This document shows positions 7,901 through 63,030 of a stretch of DNA of 64,000 bases, piece by piece. A program made the position numbers and the translations under genes. The DNA is taken from the NCBI GenBank assembly GCA_030272585.1, contig BSYQ01000002.1, positions 6,510,001 to 6,574,000 of the forward strand, read 5' to 3'. Position 1 is the first letter of the stretch; every line of letters starts with the position of its first letter. The stretch comes from Bryopsis sp. KO-2023. Lineage: Eukaryota; Chlorophyta; Ulvophyceae; Bryopsidales; Bryopsidaceae. The notes below the pieces were generated by a model, which saw only the letters and a program-made list of their open reading frames with translations, was not told where the DNA came from and ran no database searches.

Positions 7901-10367
7901 GTGGTGAAGGAATTGTTGCACAATGGTAAGCTTTGCTTGCCTTTTTTCTTTCTGAGCAAGAATGAGAAACAACAAGGACACATCCGGTCAACGAAGTCGT
8001 TGTCAATGATTTTTTGAGTAGTATCGAATGGTAGTTGTTTCTTTTTTCATGTTTTGGACTTTCAAGATAACAAATAGTTATGAAATATTTGTTCCAAAAA
8101 GGGTTAGAACCATGTATAATTTAGTTTTTTATTTTACGCTATTATTATCATTCTCTTTGGGCACGAAGAGCGTCTTGGCTTCTATTGATGTGGTAAGATT
8201 ACAAATCTAATCATCTTAGTTTTGTTTTTTCCAGGGGTCAATGTCGAAGCTCAAGACGAAGAGGGGGACAATCATACTATGGATCTGATCGATCTTCCAA
8301 AACTAAGGTAATATTAGGTCACAGCAGTAATCCGACATCATAACTGCGTCCTAGAACCGATTTTAGCAATGATCGGTTTTTTTTTTTTTTTTTTTCATTT
8401 TTGGCTGATCGGTGATCGTGATCGTGATCGGCCGATCAAATGTTGATCGTGCTCTTGATCGTCCGATCACATGTTGATCGTGATCGTGATCGGTTCGCCG
8501 ATCACCGATCTGATCGGTTGTTCCGATCACGATCCCGATCACGATCAAGCGCCGCGACCTGTCGGCACTTCATCGGCTGACCTTGATCGGTGTGATCGTG
8601 ATCGGCCGATCGTGATCGGACCTGCATCCGATCATGATCGGTACTGATCATTTGATCGACGAATTGATCGGTCTCGCGAAAATGCCGACAAGTCACCACC
8701 CGCAGGTGTTTCTGAGGTGGAAGGATTCGAACCGGGTACCTAACGGATTAGAAGCATACTCACTAACGCTTGGACCACTCGGAGCCACGGTTTGTAGGTC
8801 ATCCGTGTCATTATATACGTGATCTGTCAGTCCGACAAACTGAGGTATATAATGACACGGATGACCTAGTGACCGTGGCTCCGAGTGGTCCAAGCGTTAA
8901 TGCGTCTGTCTCTAGTCTGTTAGGTCCCAGGTTCGAATCCCTGCACCCCAGAAACACCTGCGGGTGGTGATTTCTCGGCATTTGTGATGGACCGATCAAT
9001 TGACCGATCATGATCCGATCTAATCGGCATCTCCGATCACGATCACGATCACGATCAAGCGCCTCGCCCTGTCGGCGCTTGATCGGCCGATGTTGGACGG
9101 TGTGATCGTGATCGGCCGATCAAAGTTGGCCGATTAAATCGGTCAGCCGATCAGATTGGTGATCGGCCGATCTCCATCGATGATCGGCCAAACCGATTTG
9201 ATCGGCGATCGATCTGATCGGAAAAACCCGATCACGATTTAATCGGTCGGACCGATCAATCCACGACCGATTAGATCGTGATCGGATCCACAGTATGGGG
9301 ACAATGCGTTACATTGGGCGTCACTGCAAGGCAATGTTGATATTACTAGAGAATTGATCAACCGTGGTGAGTCCACTTCAATTTTTCGAGCTTGTTTAGT
9401 CTTCTGATCATGATGTTACTTCCGTAAAAACAATGTGAATTCTTGACCAATTTTCATTGCGACGAATTCTTGTAAAGATCTGTTACGGCCATGCCACCGC
9501 AACAAGATGTCTCAAGGCTAAATTTTTTTTAGAGATACACACACCTCTTTTTAAAAACGTAAAATATGCTTGTTCCTCAACTTCTTCTCACTACTTTTCT
9601 TTCATCATTTGCTTCACCGCGAACTGTCTAGCAGCCTTTTAGGGCAATATCACCAAGTTTGACAAAAGATGGTTAGAACCCGGTCAAGTTTGATTTATCT
9701 TTTCATTTTTTATTTTGGGGGGGGGGACGAAGGAGTTCTTCTCTTCTGCTGATCTGATAAGATTAAATATTGAATCTTTTGAAATCACCTTTTTCAGGCG
9801 CTAATGTCGATGCTCAAGACAAGTTCAAGAGAACAGCACTATATTATGCAGTTTCAGGTGGCTTTGTTGATATCGCCAGAAAATTGATTGATCATGGTGG
9901 GTCCAATCAGAGTTTTTCAGCATTTTTCTGTTAACTCTTCATGGTGTCACTCCCCTCAACAAAATACGAATTCAACTCATGAACAAATATGGTTGCTGAG
10001 GAATTCTTGTAGAGATGTTTCCTGCCTGGAAAAAAAAAACCCTTCGGGACACAAGATATTCTTGTGCCTTAGCATTTTCTCATTGCTCTCCTTTTCCTTT
10101 TTTCTCCACCAAAAAATATTCAGCAGCCTCTGATGGCTACGTCACCGAAATTTGACTGATTTCGAAAAAGATGCATCCGTGTGAGAAGAGAAAGCTCGTA
10201 CTAGCATCTTTTATTTTCAGTTCAATCATTTTTGTGGCGTCATGTTTTTTCAAGGTGCGAGGCAAGACATTCGCGATCACACAAAAATGACTGCTGCAGA
10301 GGTTGTGTGCAAATACAAGGGGAATGCGATAAAAAAAGAGCTGGAAGACCTTCTCAAGAAATATTGA
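4962..10367 (+). CDS. Coiled-coil and ankyrin-repeat protein, 13 exons, split by a transposon
   Basis: Exons inferred from splice signals and phase: 4962-5040, 5270-5356, 5610-5680, 5772-6075, 6133-6324, 6537-6571, 6675-6734, 6892-7006, 7341-7439, 7827-7925, 8235-8272 plus 9306-9366, 9798-9896, 10255-10367. Every junction keeps phase and the sum is 1,452 nt, 483 aa, if the inserted element is ignored. Residues about 27-250 are a long charged coiled coil; residues about 255-480 are ankyrin repeats (TPLSYAAEKGH, TPTHWASEKGN, TPLLLACIF, ALHWASLQGN, TALYYAVSGG). Four ankyrin exons are exactly 99 nt with phase-1 borders, one repeat each. Ankyrin repeats mediate protein binding; the partner is unknown. 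With the element in place the frame runs into the transposon, so this allele is probably disrupted. Confidence 0.85.
8273..9297. mobile_element. hAT-like non-autonomous element A (1,025 bp) in ankyrin exon 11
   Basis: Termini are inverted: the left end reads CATACTATGGATCTGATC and the reverse complement of the right end reads CATACTGTGGATCCGATC. The 8 bp GGGACAAT occur on both sides (8265-8272 and 9298-9305). Removing the element and one copy restores an exon of exactly 99 nt with an intact ankyrin reading frame, so the borders are secure. Inside, about 8390-8690 and 9000-9290 are dense arrays of GATCGG/GATCGTGATCG motifs. The centre (about 8695-8972) is a palindrome whose arms each carry a tRNA-like sequence with A-box-like (GTGGCTCCGAGTGG) and B-box (GGTTCGAATCC) motifs. 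No transposase is encoded. An 8-bp duplication and CA-starting TIR suit hAT; the assignment is inference. Confidence 0.92.
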
Positions 10368-11195
10368 AGAGACGAGTGCATTTGGACTGCTCTGTTCTTC
10401 TCTTGCTTAACTCTGTCCAGTCTAAGCATTTTTAACATTTTTTTCTTATTGTGCTTTTCTCACCAAGGGACCTGTTCCGGTTTGATCCTATTGTGTTAAA
10501 TTTTTTTTTTCTAGGATTGTAGGATTTATGTTGAATTTAGTTATCTCCTTGTTCTTTTTTTTCCTTTTTAAGAGGGGGCTATTCTGTGGATATCTGTGTT
10601 TTGGAAAGACTGATAAGAACTTTTGCCGTCTTCTCAAAATTACAACATTGAGACCAGGGATGGGCGGAAAAGAAAAAAATTCCGCAGAGTCTGAATCAAA
10701 TGAGACTAGATCTCAGCACATTTCTTGCACCAGTTTAATTTTGCTGGCTTGATGAGCTGACATACATACACCGTTCTTGTGTGTGAAGGGGTGGCAGTGA
10801 CTTTGATTATGAAAAGAAAGACAAATCATGTAACAACTTTGAGTGAAGCTTTTTGTTATTTTCCGAGTTGATGATTTTTATGATCAGATGAAGGGGTTCT
10901 TTAGGAAACAGAAATCCACACAAAAAGAACTCATTTTAAATCCTAATTGAGTTCTGTTACTGGTTTGCATGTGGAAAAACAATATTTTCCAAAACTGTAA
11001 TCTAATTCTTCTTTCCTAGGTGTTCATTCAGACAAGATCCTTTTCGAACCAATGCCAGCTTAGCGGCCAGATCCAAAAAAAAAAACTTGAACGTTTCTAT
11101 TCCAAGAATGTTTCTGTTTTCCTTCCACTGTTAACTTTTTAAGTTCCCATCGTTGCCTGAATGAAGACTGGCGGAACGAGAAGTAGGAAGTCGTG
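10368..11195. other. Intergenic between ankyrin gene and DIRS element
   Basis: AT-rich sequence that should include the 3' untranslated region of the ankyrin gene. I see no conserved open frame, tRNA or repeat border before the right-hand terminal repeat of the DIRS element begins at 11196. Confidence 0.5.
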
Positions 11196-11279
11196 CATTA
11201 ACCCACTGCATGAGGATCCCACCCAGAAAAGCTGGAGGAGTTCTCTTCACAAAAGGCTAACATATTAATACTAAATGCC
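11196..11279 (-). repeat. DIRS terminal repeat B2
   Basis: 84-bp copy of the sequence at 11512-11595. It marks the 3' outer end of the element. It is separated from A2 by 56 bp (11280-11335) that have no counterpart next to A1. Confidence 0.88.
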
Positions 11280-11335
11280 ATATTGGTTTACACTTCGAAC
11301 TGTTTGTTTGTTTTGTCCCAAAACCTAACCATTCC

Positions 11336-11513
11336 AAAAACCTCGATTGTAATATGAAAACCGCCCTCTTTTAAGCGAACTACTCCCTCAATCATTCTAA
11401 GATCCAGTCCAACTGGATCCCCAACTGGCGTCGCCTGTCCCTTCCAGGGATAGCTTTTCGTCCCACCCTGAGTCATTGCGTTCTTTAACCTATCGTACTA
11501 ACCGTACTAGCCA
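11336..11513 (-). repeat. DIRS internal repeat A2
   Basis: 178-bp direct repeat of A1 at 24188-24365. It abuts B1 without a gap, as expected for the junction that templates circle formation in PAT-like elements. Confidence 0.9.
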
Positions 11514-11595
11514 TTAACCCACTGCATGAGGATCCCACCCAGAAAAGCTGGAGGAGTTCTCTTCACAAAAGGCTAACATATTAATACTAAATGCC
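11512..11595 (-). repeat. DIRS internal repeat B1
   Basis: 84-bp direct repeat of B2 (11196-11279), immediately downstream of the recombinase frame in the minus-strand sense and directly abutting A2. Confidence 0.9.
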
Positions 11596-11682
11596 CCTTA
11601 ACTCACAAGTAAGCAGTAAGGAATCGAATACCATGAAAAAAAACGGTCCCCAGCTGTCCCTAATAACTACTTAGTAAAAAAT

Positions 11683-12800
11683 TCAGCTCCGCTTTTTCCA
11701 TGCAAAAAATAACAAGTCGGACTCCGTCGCGACCTGCGCTTTGTCGATATACGACCAAACGGCCGTCGACGATGCAGACCACCCCCCCCAGAATTTAATG
11801 TCCCCTTCACTAATCCCTATCGCATACATTGCGGATGCGCCGCCCCGACGAAGAGAGTGATGGCCATAGACACACCCTAGGGAGAAGATCCCAGTGCAGC
11901 ATTCGCCAGTGCCTTCCAAGGCGGTTCATTTTTGGTTATCCCTGGTGCGAGAGCAGGACTTGACCCTTCCCCAAGTCAGAGATCTTTTATTGATGGTATT
12001 CGATTTCCTTTTCTTTGCTCGGGCGGATACGGCGTTCGCGGTTCGCCTGCAGGATCTGGAACTGGATGCGGGTGAGTGCACGATACATTTTATTGAGCGG
12101 CGCTACAAATCGCACAATGCTTTTGAGTTGCGACGGTCGAGGCTTTTTCCTTGTTCGGGGTGCCTAGAGGTTTTCGGGGCGTTTGAAAAGTTTTTGAAAG
12201 CGCGGAAAGAAAACTGGGGACAGGATCAAGAAATGGCGACGTCTCCTCTCGCTTCATTATGGCGGTTGCCTGGAGATCCAGTTACATTGGATGCAAAATT
12301 TGTGGCGAAGTGCTTCTCCAGAGTCATTTTGAGTTTCGGAGAAGCAAGTGGATTGCCTAACCTCGTCCGAAAGCTTCAAGGTCCCCAGCATAGTCCACGA
12401 ATGCATGGATTGGATCGCCGTCAAATACTGTCTCGCGGAACCAGGACTCACCCTCCCTTCTTCTTTCAAAAAGGTCAAGTACTCATAAATCTCCGGGGTT
12501 AATACAGGAAACGGGGGTTTCTCTTTGGTAGACTGCATAAAATGCCAAAATTTTCTAAACTTTGCAAAAATAGTGTCCCGTCCAGACGGCGCATTCGATG
12601 CGATAACCTTGCGAATCAAATCGGGCACCACATGAAGCCGTAAAGCCACAATCTCAGACGGCCATTGTATATCCACTTCTAGCAAACGCTCCCAATCATA
12701 CTGTTGCTGTCCAAACTCCTCGTCTAACACTGCGAGGACAATTTGACGAAGGGAATTACCTTGTCCTTCCAGAACCAAACCTTCTTCGGTTTGTTGATAA
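11683..12800 (-). pseudogene. DIRS tyrosine recombinase, broken by an internal inversion
   Basis: Three collinear parts of one recombinase lie on alternating strands. The N-terminal SAM-like core-binding part is read on the minus strand from about 12800 to 12350 (it includes VSPGSARQYLTAIQSMHSW). The middle part, with the first catalytic arginine region (FLFFARADTAFAVRLQDLEL), is read on the plus strand from about 11900 to 12345. The C-terminal part, with the HxxR motif (HHSLRRGGASAM) and the catalytic tyrosine (AVWSYID), returns to the minus strand at 11893-11683. So about 450 bp are inverted in place. The upstream edge overlaps the end of the reverse transcriptase frame (12724). The enzyme cannot be made from this copy. 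Confidence 0.85.
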
Positions 12801-14576
12801 TCCACACCACCGAACGCCAAGGGGGGTACGGGGTCTGGTTGCACGTCCCCGGATGAGGTAGGAATGTCCCTGCTTGGTCCGGGAGCCAAATCCCTCCTTG
12901 GGCTAAGCTCATCACTTGGCGACACCACACTGCTCCTGGCCACCACGGCAGTACCAACAGGGCACGAACTCGCGGCAGATTGCTGAGGAAGTCGATAGTT
13001 TTCTCCAACAAGCCCCAGGGTGGGTGAACGAATGAAACTCCTCTGTCCCAATCCCTCTGGGAGAGAGCATCTATGCCTGAGCTCTCGCGTTCCCAAGTTC
13101 GTGAATTGTATTCCTCCACTTGCCGATCTCTGAGCGTGGCGAACCGGTCTATCCGAACCGGGCCAAAGTGAACCTCCAACTGACGAAAAATAGCCGGATT
13201 GAGTCTCCAGCCATGAGACTGGAGGCGGCTCAATGCATCTGCCTGAAAATTGTCCTGGGAGGCCACCCAACGCGGGCACATGCGCGCCCCCGTCCGCGTC
13301 AAAAACTCGACGATCTGCTGTAATACTGGAACCAGAGTTGGTTCGTACACTCGTAGTTTCTTGAGCGCCCAATAAGTTACCCTGGAGTCCGTAACCACGG
13401 ATACCAGACATTTGCCGAGGCAGGGTTCCCAATGTTCCAAGGCGCGCGATATTGCCGTCAGCTCCTTCCAATTGATCGACTGTTGCTGATGTTCGGCCTG
13501 AAAAAAGCCGTGACACACTGCCCCCTGTGCTCGTCGCTCCCGCTCGTCGGTCTCTACCAAGCCCTTCAACAATGAGGCCCCCCAGCCGGTGAGGGAGGCG
13601 TCGGTTTCCAGCGTCCAATGGACCCTCCCGGGTTTCCACCGAGTTCCATTCCAGGCCGCGGGAACGTTTCGCCACCATTTCAACTCCCTCCTCGCGGCTG
13701 CAGATATGGGGACCCATGATTTCCAGGTTTTCTTCTGGCCAATCTGAGCGTATAAGTGACTCAGATAGAACCTGGCGGCGCTTAAAGCCGGGCTGGTGCT
13801 CTGGCAAAGGCCACAGAACGATGCTACCAGTCGGACTGGGAGCTTCCAACGATGTCGACGCCCCCGATCGAGCAACAATCGTGCCAACCCCTGGATCCGA
13901 CACAACCTTGTAACCGGTACTCGTAACAAACACTGATTGGTATCTATTTCTAATCCCAAATGAATCCTCCTCCTGGAGGGCGAAAAATCGCTCTTGACAG
14001 GGTGGACTAGCAGGCCTAACGCCTGAAAAAATTTCTGAATCCACCTGCCCCATCGAGCCAAAACCTTTTTTCCCTTGTATAATGCTAAGAAATCGTCTAA
14101 ATACACCAAAAGTGTGACGGGAATATCGGCTTTCCAAATTTTCTTCAAAATACCCCCTGGCGGGCAAGCCACTTTCCGCGGGAAACGCAAAAAGGACGAC
14201 ACATCCTTCATCACCTTTGTCCAGACAAAGGGCGAAATACACAAACCAAAGGGTAATGCACAGCATTCGAATAGACGACCATTTACCATAATCGTCACAT
14301 ATTTCCTCAGCTTGGGGTGGATGGGCACATGGAAGTACGCATGTTTCAAGTCCCATTGGATCATGTGGGCGGCTTCTGGAAAATGGCCAACCGCCGACTG
14401 CAGAGTCTCGAACCGGACCTTTGGAACCTGAATCCACTGGTTGATAGGTCGTAAATCCATGATGAGCCTGTAGTCGGGAGAATCGCGTTTCTTGATCAAG
14501 AAAGCCTTGGACACCCAGCGATTCGAACGGGCCGGGCGCAACACCCCGAGATCCAAATACTCTTGCAGAATTTTGT
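12724..14576 (-). CDS. DIRS reverse transcriptase and RNase H, main part
   Basis: Open frame continuous with 23381-23167 once the LTR element and one copy of its 5-bp duplication are left out. Motifs in order: RLIMDLRPIN, the catalytic aspartate in DLKHAYFHVPI, LPFGLCISPFVW, the YLDD active-site box, RNase H residues ETDAS, NWKELTAI, VTDSR and ADALSR, then a region with RIDRFATLRD that recalls the conserved DLFAT-type segment after RNase H in DIRS elements. The enzyme would copy element RNA into DNA. The frame has no internal stop, but its 5' part is 8.6 kb away, so it is interrupted and not translatable as one protein. Confidence 0.88.
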
Positions 14577-14581
14577 CCCAT

Positions 14582-18835: not shown

Positions 18836-18843
18836 CCAGTCAG

Positions 18844-20148
18844 CAGACCTGGGCGCCGACCCGTTGGACCGGACCGGACCGGACCGGCAACCACTTTCTG
18901 GACCGGATTTGACCTTTCTTAGACAGGTCAAATCCGGTCTGGAAAGGTCAAATCCGGTCCAAGAAAGGTCAAATCCGGGCTAGTTAAGGCCCCCTTTTCT
19001 AGACCGGATTTGACCTTTCTGGACCGGATTTGACCTTTCCAGACAGGTTGTCGCCTGTCTAGTACGGTCATACTCGTGTGACCTGTTTTAGACCGGTGTG
19101 ACCCTGTTTTAGACCGATGTGACGCCCAATATGACCTGTTTTAGACCGACTCCAAGTCGGTCTGGACAGGTGGGCCGCCTGTCCAGACCGACCTGGCACC
19201 TGTCTAGAACAGGTCACACAATTAAGCACTTTTTAATGTGTTAATCGACTGAGAACTGATTCAATTGATTAAAGAACAAAGTATTATTTATTATATACAT
19301 TTTTAATGCATGAATGATGTGAGCCAAGCCCACCAGCCACCGACTAGAGGGAGTCGGTCGACTCAAGGAGGATTCGAACCCGGGTTGGCTAAGCCCGAGT
19401 CGAAGACACTATCGCTAGTGGACCCCACCACAGGGACGCTCAAAAGGGGGCCGTTACTTTTAAGTACCCGTTTAATTTTGGAAAATTAAACGGGTACGTA
19501 AAAGTAACGGCCCCCTTTTGAGCGTCCCTGTGGTGGGGTCCACTAGCGATAGTGTCTTCGACTCGGGCTTAGCCAACCCGGGTTCGAATCCTCCTTGAGT
19601 CGACCGACTCCCTCTAGTCGGTGGCTGGTGGGCTTGGCTCACGTCATTCATGCATTAAAAATGTATATAATAAATAATACTTTGTTCTTTAATCAATTGA
19701 ATCAGTTCTCAGTCGATTGATATACAATTAGCACGTTAAAAGTGCTTAATTGTGCGACCTGTTCTAGACAGGCTCCAGGTCGGTCTGGACAGGCAGCCCA
19801 CCTGTCCAGACCGACCTGGAGCCGGTCTAAAACAGGAGAACAACCCTGTCAAGACAGGGTCGTTCCGGTTTTAGACAGGTCACATCGCCGGTCTAATAAA
19901 GGCGAAATGTGGGTGTGACCTGTCTAAAAACGGAAAATCTGTCAAAAAACCGGTCCAGATTTCTGCAGATTTCCGAGGTTGACTGGACCGGAGTGGACAG
20001 GACCGGACAGGTCACAACCTGTCCGGTCTTGCAAGGACCGGCGTTTTTTCGTTGGACCGGACAGGACCGGACAGGTCAGCCGGTCCATGGACAGGTTGGA
20101 CCGGACCGGACCGGTTTTTCGCTGCCGGTCCGGTCGGGCCCAGGTCTG
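18844..20148. mobile_element. hAT-like non-autonomous element C (1,305 bp)
   Basis: Left end CAGACCTGGGCGCCGACC; reverse complement of the right end CAGACCTGGGCCCGACCGG. Both sides carry CCAGTCAG (18836-18843 and 20149-20156), an exact 8-bp duplication. Outer parts are arrays of GGACCGG and of a GACAGGTCAAATCCGGTC-type unit in both orientations. The middle, about 19206-19765, is a near-perfect palindrome of about 560 bp; each arm contains a tRNA-like sequence (minus strand about 19360-19435, plus strand about 19540-19610) with a canonical B-box GGTTCGAATCC. There is no protein-coding frame. It is inserted in the LTR element, so it is younger than it. Confidence 0.92.
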
Positions 20149-20156
20149 CCAGTCAG

Positions 20157-23161: not shown

Positions 23162-23166
23162 CCCAT

Positions 23167-23381: not shown

Positions 23382-23423
23382 TCACTTCTTTGGGTGATTC
23401 TGATTTTGCGGCGGCTGCTGCTG

Positions 23424-29131: not shown

Positions 29132-30733
29132 GTTGTGGTAAACACCGAAAACCACCGAAAACTACCGAAAACTACCGAAAACCACCGAAAACCACCAAAA
29201 ACTACTCACGAAAACCACCGAAAACTACCGAAAACTACCGAAAACTACTCACGAAAACTACCGAAAACTATAAAAACTGTAACTATGCAGCGATTACCCT
29301 TTATAAAAGGAAAAGGGAAAGATAAATATTCAAGACTATTTCAAACAAGACATTTGCTTTCAGAGTGGTAACAAGTGAGCATACCAGGGATGGTGATAGG
29401 TAATGATCGACCACCCAGAACAGTATGCAGATGAGGTCAAACACCTGATCTGACCTGACAGTTACCTTAAGGGCATGAAACTAACCATGATTGGTTTTTG
29501 ACCGATTTTTTGAAAATCGGTCAAGATCGGTCCGATTAATCGGATCGGCCGACTTGATCGAGATCGGCATCGTGACCGACTCAATCGGGCCGATAAAGAT
29601 CGGTCGTACTCCAACCAATCGGCACTTGATCGGAAGCGCTCCGATCATGATCGGTTGATCGGAATTTGATTTTAGATTCCGATCATGATCGGTATTTTTG
29701 GAAATGCCGACAAGTCACCACCCAAAGGTGTTTCTGAGGTGGAAGGATTCGAACCGGGTACCTCACAGACTGGAATCCAACGCATCGACGCTTGGACCAC
29801 TCTGAGCCACGGTTACAAGGTGATTCGTGTCAATATATGCTGAATCGGTCAGTCTGTCAAACTGAGGTACATAATGACACGGATCACCTAATTACCGTGG
29901 CTCAGAGTGGTCCAAGCGTCGATGCGTTGGATTCCAGTCTATGAGGTACCCGGTTCGAATCCTTCCACCCCAAAAACACCTTCAGGTGGTGATTTGTCGG
30001 CATTTCTAAAAATACCGATCAAATCGGCTCATTGCCGATCATGATCGGCGCATGCCGATCCCGATCACCGATCCGATCTTGGTCGGAACCCGACCCCGAT
30101 TTGGTCGATCAATTTTGATCGGCCGATCAACCGATCCCGATCAAATCGGACCGATTTTGATCGGCCGATCATTCGATGATCGGCATGATCGGTTGATCGG
30201 CATGATCGGTTGATCGGCAATGATCGGTGATCGGGATCGAGATCGGCGACCGATCACCGATCATGATCGGTCGCCCAGGTGATCGGAAACCGATTTAATC
30301 GGGATCAGATCCCAGGTATGCAAGTGAGTCTCCGAGTGATAGTACTTATCGGCAAGTGGGTATGCAAGTGTGACCCTCGGGATTCGAACCCGAGTCAACC
30401 AACCAAGGAGCCACTGGAACCAAACCAAGAGTCCATAACATTTGTAACATATTCACTCATATAAACAAAATGAATGTATTAGTTTCTTTTGTGTGTAATG
30501 GGTTTTTTCGGTGGACTCCCCGTTATAAATTTATTTTTACTGTTCAAGTTTTCGTTTTATCATGTCGATTTTTATAGTTTTCGGTGGTTTTCGGTAGTTT
30601 TCGGTAGTTTTCGGTGGTTTTCGTGAGTAGTTTTCGGTGGTTTTCGGTGGTTTTCGGTAGTTTTCGGTGGTTTTCGGTAGTTTTCGGTAGTTTTCGGTGG
30701 TTTTCGGTGGTTTTCGGTGTTTACCACGACCCA
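29132..30733. repeat. Element G: inverted CCGAAAACYAC arrays flanking element B and a tRNA-like sequence
   Basis: The left end is GTGGTAAACACCGAAAACC followed by a CCGAAAACYA array to about 29275. The right end, about 30590-30733, is its inverted counterpart. Between them lie element B (29380-30320) and a minus-strand tRNA-like sequence with a perfect T-arm-like B-box (about 30366-30440, CTCGGGTTCGAATCCCGAG). Removing B leaves an element of about 650 bp. I find no target duplication outside the ends, so its borders are less secure than those of A-D. Confidence 0.65.
29380..30320. mobile_element. hAT-like non-autonomous element B (941 bp)
   Basis: Left end CATACCAGGGATGGTGAT; reverse complement of the right end CATACCTGGGATCTGATC. 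CAAGTGAG flanks both sides (29372-29379 and 30321-30328). The interior is arrays of GATCGG motifs around a palindrome (about 29700-30005) with two head-to-head tRNA-like sequences (minus about 29735-29820, plus about 29890-29970), closely similar to the centre of element A. A and B are thus members of one subfamily with diverged arrays. No coding frame. Confidence 0.92.
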
Positions 30734-34059: not shown

Positions 34060-34282
34060 CAGAGTTGTGCGCCGTTGCAACGGCGCACAACTCTGGCTCC
34101 AAGTGACGCTCCCAATCGCCAATTAGCTCGTCGACGCTCGTGCGTTTGAGATTTTGAAGTCACATCTCATTCTTGGAAAATGTGTCAGAGTCGTGCCGAC
34201 GTCGTTTTTGCGACAACGACAACGGCCGTTAACCGTTAACGGCCGTTGTCGTTGTCGCAAAAACGACGTCGGCACAACTCTG
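34060..34282. mobile_element. hAT-like foldback element F (223 bp)
   Basis: Begins CAGAGTTGTGCGCCG and ends, in reverse complement, CAGAGTTGTGCCGACG. GAACTGAT flanks both sides (34052-34059 and 34283-34290). The left end is a perfect 36-bp palindrome (34060-34095) and the right end an almost perfect 97-bp palindrome (34186-34282) with GTTGTCGTTGTCG-type arms. Each palindrome starts with CAGAG and ends with CTCTG, so each looks like a complete pair of termini. No coding capacity. Confidence 0.9.
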
Positions 34283-34361
34283 GAACTGATCGATCGGGGG
34301 AACATATTTCAAGATCGATTGTTAGTGGTCCTACAGACTGACATGCACAATGTCTGACTGC

Positions 34362-34645
34362 CACTAGTGAAAAAATGCCGCTTTTACAAGCTTGTAAACA
34401 CCTTGTAAAGTGCTTGTAAAGTGGATTACAAGCTTGTAAAGACTTGACACTCTCCCCATCGTTTACAAGCTTGTAAAGTGGAGATTACAAGCTGTTACAA
34501 GCTGTTACACGCAAAAAGCTTGTAAAGTGGAACAGCTCCATGCTTGTAAAGTGGGAATTTACAAGCTGTTACAAGCTGTTACAAGCTTTTCCCGATCCAC
34601 GCGGTTACAAGCTCTTACAAGCTGTTACAAGCACTTTACAAGCTC
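34362..34645 (+). repeat. TTACAAGCTTGTAA array, left copy (element E end)
   Basis: Starts CACTAGTGAAAAAATGCCGC, then about 15 variants of TTACAAGCTTGTAA and CTTGTAAAGTGG, a self-complementary motif. It is the inverted counterpart of 38640-38717. Confidence 0.8.
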
Positions 34646-35962
34646 TGTCATTGATGTGTCATCACACAAGCCCAAGCACACGCTCGGCTGTGATTCTTGT
34701 CGTGGTACGATTGATTGTAAATTTTAATTGATGATTGTCTATAGATGATTCCATTCTCCACCACGTGGGTGATTATCATTATCATAAATTACAATCATTG
34801 CAATATTTTAATGATTATGAAGTAATGGACAGGATATCATCATGATTTCAATTTTTCTAATTACAATGATAAATTACAACAAAAACGCAAATCCCTTTCA
34901 ACAGCTTGATGTGCCCAAGAATCGAACTTGGGATCCACCTTCTGCACATTCTTGCTTTCTGGAAGTTTATCCCACAACCAGCAAAAGAAAGCAAAAACAC
35001 CCCTAAACCACCTCAATTGAGTTTTTTCCACCCATCACACAAGACGCCAATTCTGGTTCTAGGCACAAATTGGCAGAAGCTAGGCTTTTCCCTGTCCTGT
35101 TCATGTCATGCATATCAAGACACCACAGGTTCAGGGTTATCACCCCCATCTCAGCTCTTCAAACAGGATCGCAGCTCATTTCCCTTCAGCCCCCAAGTCA
35201 GGCTGCAGGAGGAATTTGCTGCCCTGTCCATCAACCAGCTAATCGACTCTTCCTAGACTGAATGTATCGCAAAGCATATACCAATCAGCGAATGAGTGGC
35301 CAAACATCAGCCCTTCATCACAACTATCAAAGAAACAAGTATATCCTTTGCTTCAATATCTCCTCTCTTTCCTGCCTCACCTGATTTCACCACATCAATG
35401 CAAAAAAAGGACAATGAGTGCCAGCAAAAAATCGTCAGCTCAATTGGGCATCCTAGAAGACTCATCATATAGATATACCGGCAGGAAAAAAAGTACATCT
35501 CCTGAACAACATACCAGCTAAAAATTGAGCCAGATGCATGCCCTAAAGGATTTCATTTGTTTTTTTGGGAGGGGGGTAAACTTTGCACCCAGAACCAGAA
35601 GCAAAGCTATCAGAAGTGAGCGAGAACGAGGAGAAGCCCCTCTTGTGCACGTGGAAGGTTTGATCCCTGGTCCTCATTATGTCATTCAAAATGCTCATGT
35701 TGCAGGGCAACGACCTCTTTCAGGGACTCCTTTAAAAGTCTCCTGGTTTGCGAATCCAAGCCAGAACTTCAAGCCAGATTGCCCATCCCAGACACCTACG
35801 AAGCACTTTTATTCTTGCTTTCTTTACTTATTCAAAAACAATATGTATAATGATTTTACTCATTTTAAATTTATTTAACTATTTTTAAAGCGGAATTTAC
35901 TTGGGTCGCCAGCGTCGGTCTCGTCCTTTGCGTCTGTCATCGGAGTATGACCGTCCCCTGCA
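34646..35962. other. Intergenic, with a tRNA-like fragment
   Basis: On the minus strand about 34905-34985 contains a T-arm-like sequence (CCAAGTTCGATTCTTGG) but no matching acceptor stem, so it is a tRNA relic or SINE-like fragment. The frame at 34906-35256 overlaps it and is not supported as a gene. Confidence 0.4.
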
Positions 35963-38060
35963 TCAGGACCTGGATCTGGAACGTGATCTTCGATATCTGG
36001 ACGGAGATCTAACCCTCGATCTCCTCCGGTACCTTGTTCCCCACCACCCCGAAAAAAAAAAGTAAAGAAAAGTAAAGAAAACCCCAATAAAACACAGAAC
36101 AGAAAGAAAAAAGAGAAAACATCCACTGCAATCGTTGTGGGATGATGACCTGGAAAAAAGCCCGCTAACATTCACTCAGATCAGAAGTTAACGTACATTT
36201 CAGCACAGATTTGTTATGCATTCTCCGTTTACATCAGAGGATTCTTTTTTTGGCTTCGTTCGTTTCACTTTATTTAATGTTCATTCTATTTTATTCTTGA
36301 CCAGACTGCTTTCATTGCAATGGCACTACCTGCTCCTGGACACAGATCTCGAACGAGAATAGGACCGAGATTGCAGATGCTCCTTGAACTACTGTGGGCG
36401 ATGCATCCCCGGTCGCAATTGATCGATGGGGGGTTTCCAAGTGTGGCCCAGGTTCTGCTGAGCTCTTCAACAATAAGGGAGCAGATGTCGGGTCGAACGC
36501 AAAGCATCGAGTGATGGAGGTGCAGAATGTTGAGAGTCTGATAGGAGGGCCAATCAACAACTGGTGAACTCTCAGGGGCCCTGTACAGGCAAAGGAAGAA
36601 AAAAAAGGTGATGATTCGAACAGGGGACCAGCACAAAGGCTCAAGTTCTGTTGAACCCAATAAAAACGTGTTTACAGACAGGGACCCCACCTGCAATATC
36701 CAGAGCTGATGCCAGCTGCCTGGCAGCTGCCACTCCCTCCTGGCTGCTTTTCTCATTTGCCTTGCGTAGATTTCTACTCCTCTGCTTTGTGATGAGTTCA
36801 ATGATTTTCGCCAGTGGATGATTCTCTTGCCCATTTCCCTTGCTTGAGGAGCTCATTTGCCTGCTCAAAGGATATAGGAACTTGCAGCATGGAGAGCTGA
36901 CCTGGAACAACAAAACCAAAACCCACGCCACCACTTGCGGAATTTCAGAGCCACCTACATCCTGCTGTCAACTAAACCTTCCAACAGGGAAATAAAAATT
37001 GTGCTTGAAAGGGAAAAAAAAAACCCAAAATAGACCCAAGGGTGATGCGTGTGGGAGGAGGCTGTAAGCACCCCGAATTTTCGTTATTGATTATTTTGGC
37101 GATGCGTTTTCAACTTCTTTTTTCTGCGCACCTTTTCCCATTCATCATATACAAGCGTAAGTACGATACGAAGCAATGTGTCATTGGATGCCTCCAGTGC
37201 CACTGAGCAGGTAGACAGCAAAGCCACCACTCCTGCAATCAAGCACACCAAATAAAAAGACGATGACTTCCCGGTTTAAACAGGGATCTATGTTAGGAAA
37301 AAGAAAAAAAAAGAAGAAAGAACAGAGCTCATCTGTTTTTGTAGTGGGCTAGAATTACCTTCCCCCAATTTTCTTCTGACAGAAACTGCAGGGTGGTGTT
37401 GGAGACTGGGCAAGCCTCAACCTTCGAATGGAATAAGATCTGGTACACCAGAACACAGCCTTTCTTCACATTCAATACCCATAGAAAATCGACCACCTCC
37501 ACTGTCGCCACCTGTTCAATTTCTTTTTTCCCCTCCAAAAAAAACAAAAGCAGCAACAAAACACGCAGTTCGCTGGCTGTAGCGAAACACTCACCTCACG
37601 GGGGATCTTGATCTTGACCTTGAACTGGATAATGAATATCGCCGCCGTGACCTTACCCAACAGAAAGATACCACCCTTCTTGGTGCCCTCCATCGCGTAT
37701 CCACTGGCGGAATGGGCGGTTGAGGTCATTTGCTTGCGCTTGATGGACTCTTGGTAGGGGACGGCGACCGCCTGGGCCTCTTCAACGGCCCAAAGAGAAG
37801 TAACACCGACCACGTGGTCGGTAGATGCAGTGCACTGCATCAACCGGAGACCAATTCTTTCAAGAAAAAATCGTCGGAGCACTACTTTTCTCCACTTTTT
37901 TCTTCCTTAACTGTACCCATCAAGACGAGGCCGTGCGACAGAGCAAAGCTTATCTAGTTTCACTCCTGGTCTGACTTTGAAATCTTTGCCGTCAGCGAGA
38001 ACCGCCTCCCTTCGGTTGGCAGACTTCTCGGCATCAATCTGCTTTGAGATTCCACTCTTC
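35963..38060 (-). CDS. Gene with C-terminal RS domain, upstream exons tentative
   Basis: The last two exons are well supported: 36388-36330 and 36032-35963 join in phase (AG plus G) and encode an arginine/serine dipeptide tail of about 43 residues (SRSYSRSRSVSRSR, then SPSRYRRSRSRSRS, stop). Such RS tails are typical of SR splicing factors and related nuclear RNA-processing proteins. Plausible upstream exons on the same strand are about 38055-37912 (KQIDAEKSANRREAVLADGK), 37862-37661, 37528-37361, 37204-37133 and 36869-36693 (HPLAKIIELITKQRSRNLRK); not all their phases agree, and I see no RRM. Function beyond likely RNA processing is unknown. The whole gene lies between the inverted ends of element E. 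Confidence 0.5.
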
Positions 38061-38539
38061 CCAACAAGAAGAAGGAGCCGAACTCAGGTTTCATAATACT
38101 CCTCTGCTGTAGGAAAGAACAGATCAACCCCTGTGCAACCTCCCCCTCCCCCTCCCCCTCCACAGTGTAAAATTAACCAGAGAATAATTTTTCATTCCCC
38201 TCTCTCCGTACCTGGGCCCTCGATCTCGTCAGATTCTTTTCTTGAAAAAACCCACAATATTCACCACCGGCGAACCACAGGTTTGTTGAAGTGAACATGG
38301 TATCGGGGGGCCATTATCCTCAGCGCATTATGTCGTCGACGACGCCTCCTGGAGGTGCGAGGAGCGCGGTCTTTCAAGGCGTTGCTGCGTTCGAAAATGG
38401 GGCACCGGCAGGTATCGACCGTATCAGGGGCGTCTGGGGAATAGTTACACCCAGGCGCAGGCCAACTCGGTGCCCCATTTTCGATACACTTGGCGAAAGG
38501 CGAGATTGCGTAATAACAAATGAGACGATTACAGGGTTA
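38061..38539. other. Intergenic with a 16-bp hairpin
   Basis: Contains exact inverted 16-mers CGAAAATGGGGCACCG (38392-38407) and its complement (38468-38483). An open frame at 38291-38542 spans the hairpin; I cannot say whether it is a first exon. Confidence 0.45.
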
Positions 38540-38717
38540 TAAACTGCGATTACAAGCTTGTAAACGCACTTTACATGGTAGAAACCAAAGAGAGCTCTCC
38601 GCGACGCGAAATTTCGGCTAAGTGCTGCCCGCCTGAATGTTACAAGCTCGTAAAGTGGATTACAAGCTTGTAAAGTCGCGTTTACAAGCTTGTAAAAACG
38701 GCATATTTTCACTAGTG
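38540..38717 (-). repeat. TTACAAGCTTGTAA array, right copy (element E end)
   Basis: Ends TTTTCACTAGTG at 38717. Reversed, its first 45 bases match 34357-34400 with four differences. The array is shorter and more diverged than the left copy. No matching target duplication is found on the two outer sides. Confidence 0.75.
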
Positions 38718-39246
38718 ACAGTGGAAAAACCGTTCACAGAGGAAACAGAGGGGTTCAGACAAAAACAGAAACTTCAGTCAGAAAATCGCTTCGTCGAGGG
38801 AATTTAATTCTGCAGCCGACGAGCAGAGAGACCCCTGATACGTTCAACTCCCACCTATTCAAGCCGACAGTCTTTTAAACTTGACCATTTCTGTACGTTC
38901 CCACTATTCCAGCGACGACTGACGCATTTGTAAGAAGCGGCGAAAAGAAACTGCAAAACCGGTGATTCCTGTTGTGCATCCCACTATCGGAAAAACCATT
39001 CTGTGCGATATCTTCAATACAGTTGCACAGAAACCTGCGACATCGCACAAATACTTTTTCACATTGCACAATGCTTACAGGGAGCTTCTTCACAGTGGGC
39101 TTTTTTTTTGTTTTGTTTTTTACCACGTGGCGCGATGTGTTCCTGTGGGATGTCGAGGGAAGCCGGCTGGAGGCCGAATGGTGGTGGTATTTTAATCCTT
39201 TCCTTAGGATTTCTATCTGTGGTGAAGAAGTTTGGGGTGGAGGGGG
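38718..39246. other. Intergenic
   Basis: No supported gene or repeat up to the start of the left foldback arm. Confidence 0.4.
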
Positions 39247-49687: not shown

Positions 49688-49724
49688 GTCGGTCGGTTGC
49701 ACAAACCAGGACGATTTCCTTCAG

Positions 49725-57029: not shown

Positions 57030-57605
57030 CTGCTACTGATGCTCCTTTGTCTAACAAAAAGCATCCCTGAGGATGAGTCAACCTGTTACTGATGCTCTTT
57101 TTTCTGATAAAAAGCATCCCTGAGGATGAGTCAACCTGTTACTGATGCTCTTTTTTCTGATAAAAAGAATCCCTGAGGATGAGTCAACCTGTTACTGATG
57201 CTCCTTTGTCTAACAAAAAGCACCCCTGAGGATGAGTCAACCTGTTGCTGATGCTCATTTTTTTGACAAAAAGCATCCCTGAGGATGAGTCAACCTGCTA
57301 CTGATGCTCCTTTGTCTAACAAAAAGCACCCCTAAGGATGAGTCAACCTGTTGCTGATGCTCCTTTGTCTAACAAAAAGCACCCCTAAGGATGAGTCAAC
57401 CTGTTGCTGATGCTCATTTTTCTGATAAAGAGCATCCCTGAGGATGAGTCAACTTGTTGCTGATGCTCTTTTTTTCTGACAAAAAGCACCCCTAAGGATA
57501 AATCAACCTATTACTGATGCTCCTTTGTCTAACAAAAAGCACCCCTAAGGATGAGTCAACCTGTTGCTGATGCTCTTTTTTCTGATAAAAAGCATCCCTG
57601 AGGAT
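57030..57605. repeat. Tandem repeat, about 53-bp unit
   Basis: About ten copies of a unit containing TGAGGATGAGTCAACCTGTT, CTGATGCTC and an AAAAAGCAYCCC block. Units differ mainly in the T-run and in TCTGATAA versus GTCTAACA versions, which alternate. Inverted GATGCT/AGCATC within each unit could form hairpins. Confidence 0.9.
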
Positions 57606-57940
57606 GGACATGAGCTAAACCTTGTCTTGGCTGTGGAAAACTGAGTGCTGTTGTTGCATGTCGATTCGATTTAAAAAAAAAATTTCTATGAAGAATATTC
57701 CTCAACTGTGCAATACTTTGCTGCTTTTTGCAAATAGAAAACAGAATGCCCCTAGACAGACTCCAGTAACCTCTTTTTTTTTTTTTCCTCCATCTTTGCT
57801 GCGCAGTTTGTTTTGATCATTACTACCGAAAAACAGAGGATCGACATCGTCAAACTAGGAAAAAAAAAAAAAGATAACAACAACTCTAAATCAAGTTCCA
57901 TTAAAAAGATAGAGCTGCTGCTTGCTGTTGCGACTCATTT

Positions 57941-58016
57941 AGAATTCAGAAATGGACTGGATGTTATGTTATGTCATTTAGAATTCAAAAATGGACTGGA
58001 TGTTATGTTACGTCAC
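57941..58016. repeat. Two-copy 38-bp tandem repeat
   Basis: CATTTAGAATTCAGAAATGG and the following 18 bases occur twice in a row with two differences. Confidence 0.85.
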
Positions 58017-58041
58017 AGTTGCTCTGGCATCACTTCCATAT

Positions 58042-59600
58042 ATGCCCAGAACTTGAATTTTGAATTTTGGGTTACTGAGGAGGGATGCTCCCTCTGATGC
58101 TGATGCTGCCCGTAGTAGTATCATTGGATGGTCCGCCTGATTTCGTCTTTTCATTTCTCTGCAATAATCCACTCGAATCTCCACATGCCCAGAACTTGAA
58201 TTTTGAATTTTGGGTTACTGAGGAGGGATGCTCCCTCTGATGCTGATGCTGCCCGTAGTAGTATCATTGGATGGTCCGCCTGATTTCGTCTTTTCATTTC
58301 TCTGCAATAATCCACTCGAATCTCCACATGCCCAGAACTTGAATTTTGAATTTTGGGTTACTGAGGAGGGATGCTCCCTCTGATGCTGATGCTGCCCGTA
58401 GTAGTATCATTGGATGGTCCGCCTGATTTCGTCTTTTCATTTCTCTGCAATAATCCACTCGAATCTCCACATGCCCAGAACTTGAATTTTGAATTTTGGG
58501 TTACTGAGGAGGGATGCTCCCTCTGATGCTGATGCTGCCCGTAGTAGTATCATTGGATGGTCCGCCTGATTTCGTCTTTTCATTTCTCTGCAATAATCCA
58601 CTCGAATCTCCACATGCCCAGAACTTGAATTTTGAATTTTGGGTTACTGAGGAGGGATGCTCCCTCTGATGCTGATGCTGCCCGTAGTAGTATCATTGGA
58701 TGGTCCGCCTGATTTCGTCTTTTCATTTCTCTGCAATAATCCACTCGAATCTCCACATGCCCAGAACTTGAATTTTGAATTTTGGGTTACTGAGGAGGGA
58801 TGCTCCTGATGCTGATGCTGCCCGTAGTAGTATCATTGGATGGTCCGCCTGATTTCGTCTTTTCATTTCTCTGCAATAATCCACTCGAATCTCCACATGC
58901 CCAGAACTTGAATTTTGAATTTTGGGTTACTGAGGAGGGATGCTCCCTCTGATGCTGATGCTGCCCGTAGTAGTATCATTGGATGGTCCGCCTGATTTCG
59001 TCTTTTCATTTCTCTGCAATAATCCACTCGAATCTCCACATGCCCAGAACTTGAATTTTGAATTTTGGGTTACTGAGGAGGGATGCTCCTGATGCTGATG
59101 CTGCCCGTAGTAGTATCATTGGATGGTCCGCCTGATTTCGTCTTTTCATTTCTCTGCAATAATCCACTCGAATCTCCACATGCCCAGAACTTGAATTTTG
59201 AATTTTGGGTTACTGAGGAGGGATGCTCCCTCTGATGCTGATGCTGCCCGTAGTAGTATCATTGGATGGTCCGCCTGATTTCGTCTTTTCATTTCTCTGC
59301 AATAATCCACTCGAATCTCCACATGCCCAGAACTTGAATTTTGAATTTTGGGTTACTGAGGAGGGATGCTCCCTCTGATGCTGATGCTGCCCGTAGTAGT
59401 ATCATTGGATGGTCCGCCTGATTTCGTCTTTTCATTTCTCTGCAATAATCCACTCGAATCTCCACATGCCCAGAACTTGAATTTTGAATTTTGGGTTACT
59501 GAGGAGGGATGCTCCTGATGCTGCCTATAGTAGCATTGGATGATCCGCCTGATTTCGTCTTTTTCATTTCTCTCTGCAATAATCCACTCTAAATCGTCAA
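58042..59600. repeat. Satellite-like array, 143-bp unit
   Basis: Units begin at 58042, 58185, 58328, 58471, 58614, 58757, 58897, 59040, 59180, 59323 and 59466. Most are 143 bp; two are 140 bp owing to the same 3-bp loss in the CTCCCTCTGATG block. Copies are otherwise nearly identical, the last is partial and diverged. The period is not a multiple of three, and both strands are interrupted, so it is non-coding. Confidence 0.95.
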
Positions 59601-62565
59601 GAACCTCTACCTCACTTTGCACGGTTTTTTGAAAACAGAATTCACATCCACTCACATCGAATCGACAGTGGTTGGAATTGCAGGTGGAAATTCAATGATT
59701 TGGGGAAAAGGTTGTATTTCTTTTTTTTTTGGGGGAGGGGGGGGATATACAGAGGTAACTTTTTTTTTTTTCCATGGCCAGGGTGGTAACTTTGGTTCAA
59801 TACTATAGACTAAAGGGGTTCAGGTGTGTGTGTTTTTCGTGTTTTTTTTTTTCCGGTCCGAAAAGGTCCGAATTTTTTTTCAACAGGTTGTTGAGAGGTT
59901 GGCAGCAAAAAAACTAAAAATAGTTCTTTTTGTTTTCTTGTTTAAGTTCAAATCATGCAGAGATTCTTAAAAAAAGGTGTTCCATTTAAAAAATCGAATT
60001 TTTCCTGAAAACAAGAAGGCTGATTTCTTTTGGGAGGTGTAATTTATGCTGGGATGATTTTTTTCAAGTCAATCCAGGCTACTTCAGTTGTTTGTCCCCA
60101 ATTTCATCGGTTTCGTTCTTTTTCGAATTTCCACAAAGAGAAGGAATTCGGCAGCAAGGCTCAAAATGGTCAGTTTGCGAGGGGGGGGGGGGGTTCTTGT
60201 TTTAATAAAGACAAAAGTGAAAAAGAAACAATATTTTTGCACAAGCAATACTTCCATTCAGGGGGCAGAGTTCCATTTTGGTTTATAACTCCGAAATGGC
60301 TTACCTGCAATGCATATATACATCAATGCATTGCACCCCATTCCATTTCCAGAACAGGGGGGGTTGAGCAACAGCCTCCACCAACATTTTCACCACATGG
60401 AAATGTTGGTTTGCTGGCTGGCTAGCTTTCACCACATGTTGATGGAAATGTTGGCTGGCTAGCTGGCTTTCACCACATGTTGATGGAAATATGCTGGCTT
60501 GCTGGTTGGCTGGATGGTTTCCAGCTCCCAACCACACATGCAAAAATTTGAGGTTAAGAATTCAAGAAAGAAATTTCCACCACCAGGCAGGCAGAACTTT
60601 ATAGAAGGGGTGTGAACAAAAACAAAAACTGAACAAAAACTGGAAAACAACATACTGCAATGGGGTATTGATCGTCTCTTGGAGAGACGAAAATAAAGAT
60701 AAAGAAAATGTTACATACATGTATTAAACTGAATGCAACTAAAAAATAAGACAAAAAAAATGAGATAAAAAAAATACAAGCAATTGTTTTGGGAACATTA
60801 ACCGACCCCTGTGTCATTTACACCTCGAACTTTTTTCCGAAATCTTTTTTTGGGGAAAATTAAGGGAAAAATAAATAAAATAAAAAAGAAGACAACAACA
60901 GACCTTCTCTTTTGTTTTTTTCCTGAGGTAAAAGAACAGGCAGTAGAAAAAAATTGAAAAAAAAAAAAATTCATGAAAGCAACACAGGGGAATCCAACCC
61001 CTACTACTGTCCCAATTATCCACCTTTTTAATCTAAAATATAATTACAAATTCTAAAAATAGTTTTTGAAATTTAGGTCATTTCCTTGAGCCTGTGAGTA
61101 CGAACAGTTGCTGATATGCATCATTATTTTTAAAAAAGTAACCCTTCTTTCAGAAATAAACTAGAAAAAAAAAATAAATAAAACATTGTGAGGAGCAAAG
61201 GGGTTAGTCACTCTTTTTATTTTATCTTGGAGGAAAAAACGGACAATACAAACTATCCTCAGAGCATCTCTCATCAATCAGGGCTTTTCGTTCGGGGGGA
61301 ACAAATATTTTTTCATTTTCTTTCTTACCTTCACACCTGAATTGATTGGCCCCAGAAAGAAGCCTGTTTCTGTTGTGAAAGAAAGAAAAGAAGTATTCAG
61401 GGTTTTCTCATCTTCAATTTTTTGGCTGTTTCAAGTTTCAATTAATTTATTTGTTTTCAAAAAGGCCTGGACTCTTTTGCCAGAGGTTAGGCTTGGGGTT
61501 TCCTTTTCAAAAAAACGTATTTACTTCCCACCCCCCTTGAAAAGAAAAACACTCTCCAAGTTTCCACGAAGACACCCACAGGCCGCTTCTTCGCCACGAA
61601 AAGAAAAATAATGGAACAAGTCATATCGTGGTAAATATTTTGTCCCAGTCCTCCCTGAGAAACGAGAAAGAAAAAAGAAAAAACATGCCAACAGAAACGC
61701 GGCGTACCCTTCCTTTTTTTTCCTACAACGAGTCATCGCTTTCGCAGAAAAATTCCCCTCGACGATTCCGCTCCTTCCAGATTATAGTCCAGCAGTTTCG
61801 CCAGGGCGAAAAAAAGCCGACGGGGTTCAAAAAATAAATAAGCAGCGTTCTCTTTTCACGACTCAGAAAGACGAAAAAAAACTCAAAACCGTCGAAACAG
61901 GAAACTCTCTTTTCGATAGGTGGACGGGAAAACTGAAAATCATTTACTTGATTGGAAAAAAAGAACTATCTTCAGAGGTGTGAGAAAGATCTCGAACAAA
62001 AGTGACGTACATCCCACAAACTTCTCCATGTGTGACGATCCGAAAAGCGCATTCGGCGCAACTACTAACTTTTCATTCGCGCCGCGACTAAAGGTAGTGT
62101 CGCACCGAACTACTGCGGAGTCTGTCTACAGCAACTGAGTCGGACTACGCCAACTTTGAATGTCATATCAAAAACTCGGTATCTAAACTGCAACGCACTG
62201 AAACTATCGTCACCCAAGAAGTCGGCTAAGACCAGTCGCACAATTAAAACATCGCAATCCAACAGTGATAAGTTCGAACCCTGCCACTCACGAAAGGCCT
62301 AAGACCAGGCACCTGAACGCAATACGAGTCAAAGTCGACGGAGACACCCGCTAAGAGGGCCTTGCTCCCGAGACTGAGACAGAAAGTGGAGTCCCCTGGA
62401 GGGTGGTCGCTAAGAAACCATGGCCTAAGGGGACTCTGGAAACTGAGCTGGAGAAGGGAGAAACATAACAAAAGACAAGGAGACACCTCTGAGTGCAAAA
62501 ACTCCTAAGGGAAGAACAGCACCTTCCCCCACTAGCTATTACTTCTGACTTCTAGGATTAAAGAC
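59601..62565. other. Intergenic with a dispersed repeat
   Basis: About 59970-60400 is the counterpart of the repeat at 25320-25700. It is followed by about three copies of a 40-odd-bp tandem unit (TTTCACCACATGTTGATGGA, about 60425-60520) with GCTGGCTGGCTAGC motifs. Homopolymer A and T runs are frequent from 60600 to 61300. A tRNA-like B-box (GGGTTCGAACTT, minus strand) occurs near 62285. No gene is supported. Confidence 0.45.
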
Positions 62566-63030
62566 CAGAGATAGGACTTTACGGTTACGGTCACCGTAAC
62601 CGGACCGTAACCACCGTAACCGGACCGTAACCGGAGTACAATTTTCGTCAGAAAATCGTACTTTTACGGCCGTAACCGTAGCACCGTACCACTCCGTACC
62701 GCTCCGTACCGGACCGTAACGACCGTAACGGCCGTAACAACCGTAAACCGTAGAAAGTGACCCCCGCAGGGTCCCACGATTCCAAAGGAACCCAGGGGGA
62801 TTCGAACCTGCGACCCTACTGACTGCAGCCTAACGCTTTAGCACTGAACCACGCTACTTCACGGTGATTTAGGGCCTACCGTAGTTATACCGTACCTGTT
62901 CCGTACCGTAAAAACAACATATTACTCCGGTTACGGTACGGAGTTACGGCCGTAGTACGGTGACCGTAACCCGACCGTAACCGGACCGGACCGGAGTCGG
63001 ACCAAAAATTTGGCCCAAGTCCTATCTCTG
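62566..63030. mobile_element. hAT-like non-autonomous element D (465 bp)
   Basis: Perfect 14-bp TIRs CAGAGATAGGACTT; TTAAAGAC on both sides (62558-62565 and 63031-63038). Inside are arrays of CCGTAACC/CCGTAACGG and related CCGTACC motifs on both sides of one minus-strand tRNA-like sequence (about 62786-62870) with a B-box GCAGGTTCGAATCC and an A-box-like GTAGCGTGGTTCAGTG. Unlike A, B and C it has only one tRNA-like copy. No coding frame. Confidence 0.93.

Follow-up and report, generated by a model that had tools for sequence, protein, structure and literature searches.

The transposon Ac carries multiple AAACGG hexamers that bind its transposase, and its relative Ds2 has ~200 bp at either end in common with Ac, encloses unrelated filler and is flanked by 8-bp duplications (available portion of PMC3260210). 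Hermes prefers the target nTnnnnAn, and its BED domain binds subterminal repeats (available portion of PMC10368747). The Helenus, Ajax and Cassandra elements (TRIMp3) are gene-less long terminal repeat (LTR) elements with a tRNA- or 5S-derived RNA polymerase III (pol III) promoter and depend on autonomous relatives (available portion of PMC10886601). Here, a window of 64,000 nucleotides from the coenocytic green alga Bryopsis sp. KO-2023 (C2:6510001-6574000; assembly of 91.09 Mb in 28 contigs) was analysed, in which five short elements, A, B, C, D and F, are present. Elements A, B, C and D are very probably non-autonomous hAT transposons, moved in trans by cut-and-paste by the transposases of full-length hAT relatives, and each has, where a coding region would lie, a core with tRNA-type promoter boxes. 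The hAT part of this reading is based on shared terminal inverted repeats (TIRs), family-specific motif arrays, 8-bp duplications on both kinds of copy, hAT domains and many near-identical copies.

All five elements were located with the inverted ends and the exact 8-bp target-site duplications (TSDs) described in an earlier note on this DNA. That note had read F as palindromes only and D as arrays with one tRNA-like copy. Both descriptions held: F comprises two palindromes and lacks both a B box and all three array motifs, and D contains 17 TTACGG motifs (both strands) and a single B-box unit. By its TSD and TIR, F is classed as a hAT-like miniature inverted-repeat transposable element. Positions of the elements, their cores and the autonomous partners are collected in the table.

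Table. Elements and tRNA-like units of the window (window positions), and autonomous partners elsewhere in the assembly (contig positions).
Feature	Position	Strand	Details
Element A, 1025 bp, probable non-autonomous hAT	8273..9297		TIR CATACTATGGATC; TSD GGGACAAT at 8265-8272 and 9298-9305
Element B, 941 bp, relative of A	29380..30320		TSD CAAGTGAG; GATCGG arrays
Element C, 1305 bp	18844..20148		TIR CAGACCTGGGC; TSD CCAGTCAG; CCTGTC/CCGGTC arrays
Element D, 465 bp	62566..63030		TIR CAGAGATAGGACTT; TSD TTAAAGAC; CCGTAA arrays
Element F, 223 bp, two palindromes	34060..34282		TSD GAACTGAT; none of the three array motifs, no B box
A left tRNA-like unit, limits approximate	8680..8818	-	leftward; B box 8723-8733
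A right tRNA-like unit, limits approximate	8845..8985	+	rightward; B box 8930-8940; A box TGGCTCCGAGTGG
B core, two divergent tRNA-like units	29702..30005		B boxes 29745-29755 (-) and 29952-29962 (+)
C core, 237-nt arms 99% complementary, one unit per arm	19243..19718		B boxes 19370-19380 (-) and 19581-19591 (+)
D tRNA-like unit, limits approximate	62797..62865	-	B box 62798-62808 (-)
A-type partner (L046), 6850 bp	C1:3379249-3386098		duplication ACGACGAC; 811-aa open frame
C-type partner (L086+L044+L039), 6873 bp	C7:1845776-1852648		duplication GTAGCAAG
D-type partner (L085+L031), 5115 bp	C8:1642982-1648096		duplication GTTGGAAG

A genome search with PF05699 (hAT dimerisation domain) scored 150 of 185 candidates. 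All 150 exceeded the cut-off and fell into several size classes, three of which pair with elements of the window. Full-length autonomous partners of 5.1-6.9 kb, with a hAT domain, an 8-bp duplication and the same motif arrays, were identified for A/B, C and D. The earlier note had proposed looking for a partner of this kind that shares the TIRs; A, C and D each have one, itself flanked by an 8-bp duplication. Aligned to its partner, A is 87% identical over the outer 377 bp of one end (379 columns) and 94.7% over 265 bp of the other, and its core is not present in that partner. The ends of C match the C-type partner at 84% over 236 columns and 81% over 188 columns. Those of D match D-type copies with a hAT domain at 97% over 105 bp (3' end) and at 94% over the first 47 bases (48 columns). 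Sharing ends and differing in their interiors, A, C and D are on this comparison Ds2-like derivatives of autonomous hATs. Element B is linked to a transposase only via A-like relatives, and no transposase with ends matching F was found.

The 811-aa open reading frame of the A-type partner matched PF05699 at 7.4e-16 and the Hermes transposase at 3.6e-8, the latter through a C-terminal stretch. Sub-alignments, individually not significant, placed VTD, CxxH and TRWNST opposite Hermes. The Pfam BED domain, considered for the A type only, was not reported at E 0.001, and a C-x2-C...H-x4-H pattern is visible by eye. A protein search with this transposase, in which the 8000 best candidates were scored, returned two proteins: one 39% identical over 94% of the query, and a weak match to a fish hAT. 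The scarcity of matches indicates that it belongs to a rarely sampled hAT branch. Downstream of the transposase gene and on the other strand, at 3965-4927 and 5348-5806 (-) of the partner, lie frames resembling a second gene, with a repeated GPPPNMIRPGQ and no Pfam match; by eye, stretches of L033-L036 resemble these frames. A further hAT-domain family (L041) has arrays of a CTGTGCACAGG-like motif downstream of the domain.

Further copies of the elements, a search for which the earlier note had proposed, proved numerous across the genome. Each copy search scored 40 candidates, taken from 171 (B core), 186 (C), 494 (D), 124 (F) and 167 (one more search), and duplications were called by a script using the best-matching TIR pair per locus with ≤3 mismatches. 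Perfect 8-bp duplications flanked 49 of the 52 distinct family copies examined, the window's five included. All 20 A-type loci (L001-L020, A included) had one, and one A-type locus consists of two nested elements, each with a perfect duplication. The eight loci with a B core represent seven distinct elements, six with perfect duplications and one without (L054); the eight C loci represent five elements, four with and one without (L062). Perfect duplications were present in 10/10 D copies and 9/10 F copies, the remaining F copy (L078) matching at 7/8 bases. No two of the 51 collected duplications are alike (this set excludes the F copy with the 7/8 match, GTTGGAAG, GTAGCAAG and CAACAGAC). When symmetrised they have T at position 2 in 57% and A at position 7 in 57%, with G2/C7 at 2%, which is the nTnnnnAn preference expected of a hAT.

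Counts of TIR strings in the 91-Mb genome were 468 for the A type (2 for the reversed string), 790 for D (0 reversed) and 72 for one C end (0 reversed). The F end string gave 188 matches against 2 reversed; this end is palindromic and often counted twice. Chance falls far short of accounting for the ends and duplications. Among the ten plus-oriented A copies, of which A is one, identity over 1025 bp is 96.8-100%, which suggests recent movement. Element B stands as a lone relative of A: in the 40 candidates scored out of 171, the next-best match to its core reached 86%. The F end matches are unevenly spread: contig C2, with 9.7% of the genome, holds 77/188 (18 expected) and C1 holds 8 (24 expected), the two matches of one palindrome not being independent, so that a computed p value is too small. 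C2 also hosts 18/40 of the scored F copies. This crowding may reflect local hopping or a special chromosome.

Each end type has its own subterminal array motif. On both strands together, GATCGG occurs 34 times in A, 35 in B and 32 in the A-type partner, and is absent from the other five of the eight elements counted (A, B, C, D, F and the three partners). TTACGG/CCGTAA occurs 17 times in D, 52 in the D-type partner and at most once in any other element. For CCTGTC/CCGGTC the counts are 44 in C, 114 in the C-type partner and 0-8 in the others. Across the window, elements included, the array motifs occur at 0.5-1.4 per kb. In the 900 end bases of the autonomous partners, GATCGG, TTACGG and CCTGTC+CCGGTC number 28, 0 and 2 in the A type, 0, 35 and 5 in the D type, and 0, 0 and 64 in the C type. 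By analogy with the subterminal repeats of Ac and Hermes, the arrays are best read as predicted transposase-binding repeats. Family-specific end motif arrays were also seen inside the C- and D-type transposase genes (L044 240-600 and 2380-2640; L085 4280-4490), in what appear by eye to be introns, an arrangement that might allow the transposase to bind the gene encoding it.

The 8-bp duplications, the hAT domains between shared ends and the target preference uphold the earlier hAT reading of TIR and TSD. The five elements had also been presented as a single family. That view was rejected: F aside, the elements fall into three or more separate hAT families with different ends, arrays and transposases, and apart from A/B the cores share only a tRNA-like stretch or the B box.

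A perfect B box, GGTTCGAATCC, was found in all seven core units, two each in A, B and C and one in D, and the exact box is absent from F and from the three full autonomous elements. A looser box, GGTTCGANNCC, occurs 10 times in the window, where 20 mononucleotide shuffles give an expectation of 0.4; seven of the ten are inside A, B, C and D. The earlier account of A, B and C, arrays outside and two tRNA-like units facing each other within, was right about the arrays and the pairs but not about orientation: the units are divergent, with their 5' ends central and the boxes pointing outward. The arms are 85% complementary in A and 99% in C. Homogenisation of the C arms was considered and rejected, identity within a copy being the same as between copies (0.979-0.996 in both cases, four copies).

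The cores of A and B are 84% alike and form one lineage. When the left and right arms of A and B were aligned (four arms, each represented by a single sequence, out of 30 distinct arms of which three lie outside this family), 12/13 columns of the A box and 11/11 of the B box were kept, compared with 26/41 between them (permutation p 1.3e-4). In the two A arms the A box is preceded, 30 columns upstream, by TATATAAT, of which the B arms have variants. The 57-nt stretch running from the A box to the B box is 75% alike between the units of A and D (E ~2e-6), which is an independent sign of tRNA ancestry. Outside this stretch, no match longer than 11 nt was found between these two cores.

Genome-wide, the GGTTCGAATCC 11-mer occurs 1726 times (8 for the reversed string). 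The first 100 sites, on C1 up to position 9,218,361 (~9.2 Mb), were assigned to elements, and an element was counted as a pair only if both of its ends matched a TIR string exactly. Of these 100 sites, 59 fell within or next to A-, D- and C-type elements, a warning that searching a genome of this kind for B boxes will bring up many transposons. Short A pairs accounted for 19 of the 59 and short D pairs for 22; 7 were near a single A end, 6 near a single D end and 5 in C cores. On this stretch, 9/9 short A-type TIR pairs hold a divergent B-box pair, one with an extra box, and 22/23 short D-type pairs hold exactly one B box, the remaining pair none. Two of the three long A-type pairs have no B box; the third (C1 10996-18282) holds one because a D element is nested in it at 12593.

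Several observations weigh against reading A to D as mobile hATs with tRNA-type promoters. Their movement is read from sequence. The TIR consensus YARNG is typical of hATs, not defining; D and F (CAGAG) agree with it and A, B (CATAC) and C (CAGAC) depart from it. No tRNA was called in the elements by ARAGORN, and none by Rfam at gathering score (lowered Rfam thresholds were applied to A, B and C, and the gathering score only to D). Folding of the units into tRNA-shaped RNA was no better than that of shuffled sequences (z 0.03, -0.80, -0.01 and 1.38). An automatic scan gave only A-box candidates with 1-2 mismatches at varying distances. The A box was read by eye in the A/B alignment and in D; it is weak in C, in which the B box alone stands out clearly. 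Runs of T that could terminate pol III transcripts are inconsistently placed and follow no shared terminator rule. One match to the looser box, GGTTCGATCCC at 4932, is present in the A-type partner. As the arms were gathered by their perfect B box, the permutation p is optimistic and the invariance of the B box is partly a matter of choice. Finally, 10 of the 41 B-box sites outside the elements were examined, and neither a callable tRNA (0/10) nor a short TIR/8-bp structure within 400 bp (0/10) was seen; the B box alone is therefore not specific and is no proof of a pol III gene. Of the earlier term tRNA-like, the perfect B box, the A box seen by eye in A/B and the weak A-D match in the tRNA body stand, and a foldable or callable tRNA does not. 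Real tRNA genes were rejected as an interpretation on these results. With lowered thresholds and introns allowed, the ARAGORN calls listed were scattered over all elements, F included, and the unrelated stretch 34280-38760, and these were discarded as noise.

Under the preferred interpretation, each autonomous transposase would bind its own arrays, cut at the TIRs and move both full and gene-less copies. The different motif of each family would confine each transposase to its own derivatives. The gene-less copies would have arisen by loss of the transposase gene and insertion of tRNA-like DNA, as Ds2 took up filler, the cores deriving from a tRNA or tRNA-derived sequence probably acquired during repair after excision. 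In the weakest step, the boxes may bind TFIIIC or pol III, so that gene-less copies lie in open chromatin or are transcribed and their spread is aided. We regard a real pol III role of these putative boxes as possible and somewhat doubtful.

The strongest competing explanation, to which we give a little less than an even chance, is that the cores are mere filler, tRNA-like by accident and spread with the ends without a function. Variable filler is documented for Ds2 (available portion of PMC3260210), the cores have no cloverleaf and no callable tRNA, and F has spread without such a core. Against this, three end types carry the same kind of core, random filler of that size has a B box, at the frequency outside the elements, in only ~0.2-0.4% of cases (a rough figure from the first 100 of the 1726 sites), and conservation is higher in the boxes than in the sequence separating them. 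The same kind of filler in three end types is unlikely by chance and points either to biased capture or to binding of TFIIIC/pol III that aids persistence. Biased capture would mean that tRNA genes, which are fragile, replication-stalling sites, often serve as template for gap repair after excision and so leave tRNA-derived cores. Different tRNA-like donors would be expected to leave what is seen in A and D, whose units share 57 nt at 75% and whose cores have no other match above 11 nt, but no donor locus was identified, and we consider this route a rather unlikely one. That the elements are retroelements imitating DNA transposons, either short interspersed elements (SINEs) or tRNA-carrying terminal-repeat retrotransposons in miniature (TRIMs) of the Helenus type, is highly improbable. 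They do have tRNA-like pol III boxes of the kind typically seen in tRNA SINEs and Helenus LTRs (available portion of PMC10886601), but their termini are inverted, not direct, long terminal direct repeats and 4-5 bp duplications are lacking, the duplications are constantly of 8 bp, and the ends of A, C and D are shared with elements encoding a hAT transposase.

Beyond the reading of A to D as transposase-dependent hATs lies a more far-reaching proposal, which we advance only as speculation and think unlikely: that gene-less hATs of Bryopsis repeatedly acquired TFIIIC modules, often as divergent pairs, and have become successful through them, as a DNA-transposon counterpart of SINEs and TRIMp3. 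The modules could help if TFIIIC kept copies accessible to transposase or shielded them from silencing, or if outward pol III transcripts of the self-complementary arrays interfered with silencing.

Further repeats were noted in the window. The interval 34362-38717 may be another element, with CACTAGTGAAAAAATGCCG as its TIR and arrays of TTACAAGCTTGTAA at each end; by eye, it has no clear target duplication. Around element B, 29135-30727 has inverted AAAACCACCG arrays, ends GTGGTAAACACC and an extra B box at 30390 (-); B seems to be nested in an older array-bearing element there, for which no duplication is visible by eye. Between 11196 and 24365, identical direct repeats (11336/24188 and 14578/22962) flank an open reading frame with a weak integrase-like match (3.3e-4, below the cut-off), and this interval is perhaps a large nested element hosting C. 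Elsewhere in the assembly, L087, L088, L092 and L094 contain short tRNA-like pieces that have a T arm inside a stem such as GGCAT...TGCC but no D arm; they are possibly degenerate, split or permuted tRNA genes. At G000:C5:3665776-3768604, high-scoring tRNA matches recur across 100 kb at intervals of ~3.2 kb and occasionally more; this is a tandem array with one tRNA gene per unit. By eye, L037 and L045 have LTR-retrotransposon-like ends with tRNA-like sequence and TTCGAA boxes, as in Helenus-type TRIMs. Contig C28 (91,672 bp) is the plastid genome, its last 5.7 kb containing frames read by eye as psbA, chlI, rps7 and rps12.

Pol III promoters are familiar from gene-less retroelements, whose moving form is RNA. 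A DNA transposon moves without RNA, so the acquisition of such boxes asks for another use of TFIIIC or pol III, such as chromatin access or insulation, or for biased capture. Their acquisition by three end types, with exact copies absent from the three fully read autonomous partners, is the puzzle posed by these elements. With young copies, three pairs of transposase and derivative and clear motifs, the question is directly testable.

Like tRNA-derived SINEs, which carry the boxes of a degenerate tRNA, the Bryopsis elements have such boxes; they differ in their TIRs, constant 8-bp duplications and hAT ends. With Hermes, so far as the available portion of PMC10368747 describes it, they share the homology of the A-type transposase (3.6e-8), an 8-bp nTnnnnAn target and subterminal repeats, but Hermes has five motif copies in the first 55 bp per end and the Bryopsis elements 28-64 copies in two 450-bp ends. 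TRIMp3 are likewise small non-autonomous mobile elements with pol III-type promoter boxes and autonomous relatives, but they are LTR retrotransposons with 4-5 bp duplications, whereas the Bryopsis elements are DNA transposons with TIRs and 8-bp duplications (available portion of PMC10886601); the term DNA transposon is absent from the main text of that paper. A tRNA-like or pol III promoter combined with a DNA transposon was not found in the open-licence literature searched, subscription papers and Repbase lying outside this search. Closest are Ac and Ds2 as described in the available portion of PMC3260210, which also show non-autonomous derivatives, shared ends with hexamer arrays, a foreign interior and 8-bp duplications; Bryopsis differs in having three end types with tRNA-type boxes, longer self-complementary arrays and inverted core pairs in A, B and C. 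Thus hATs with foreign interiors are already known from Ac/Ds2 and pol III promoters from gene-less LTR elements, and, as far as this limited literature search reaches, their combination with a DNA transposon appears to be new.

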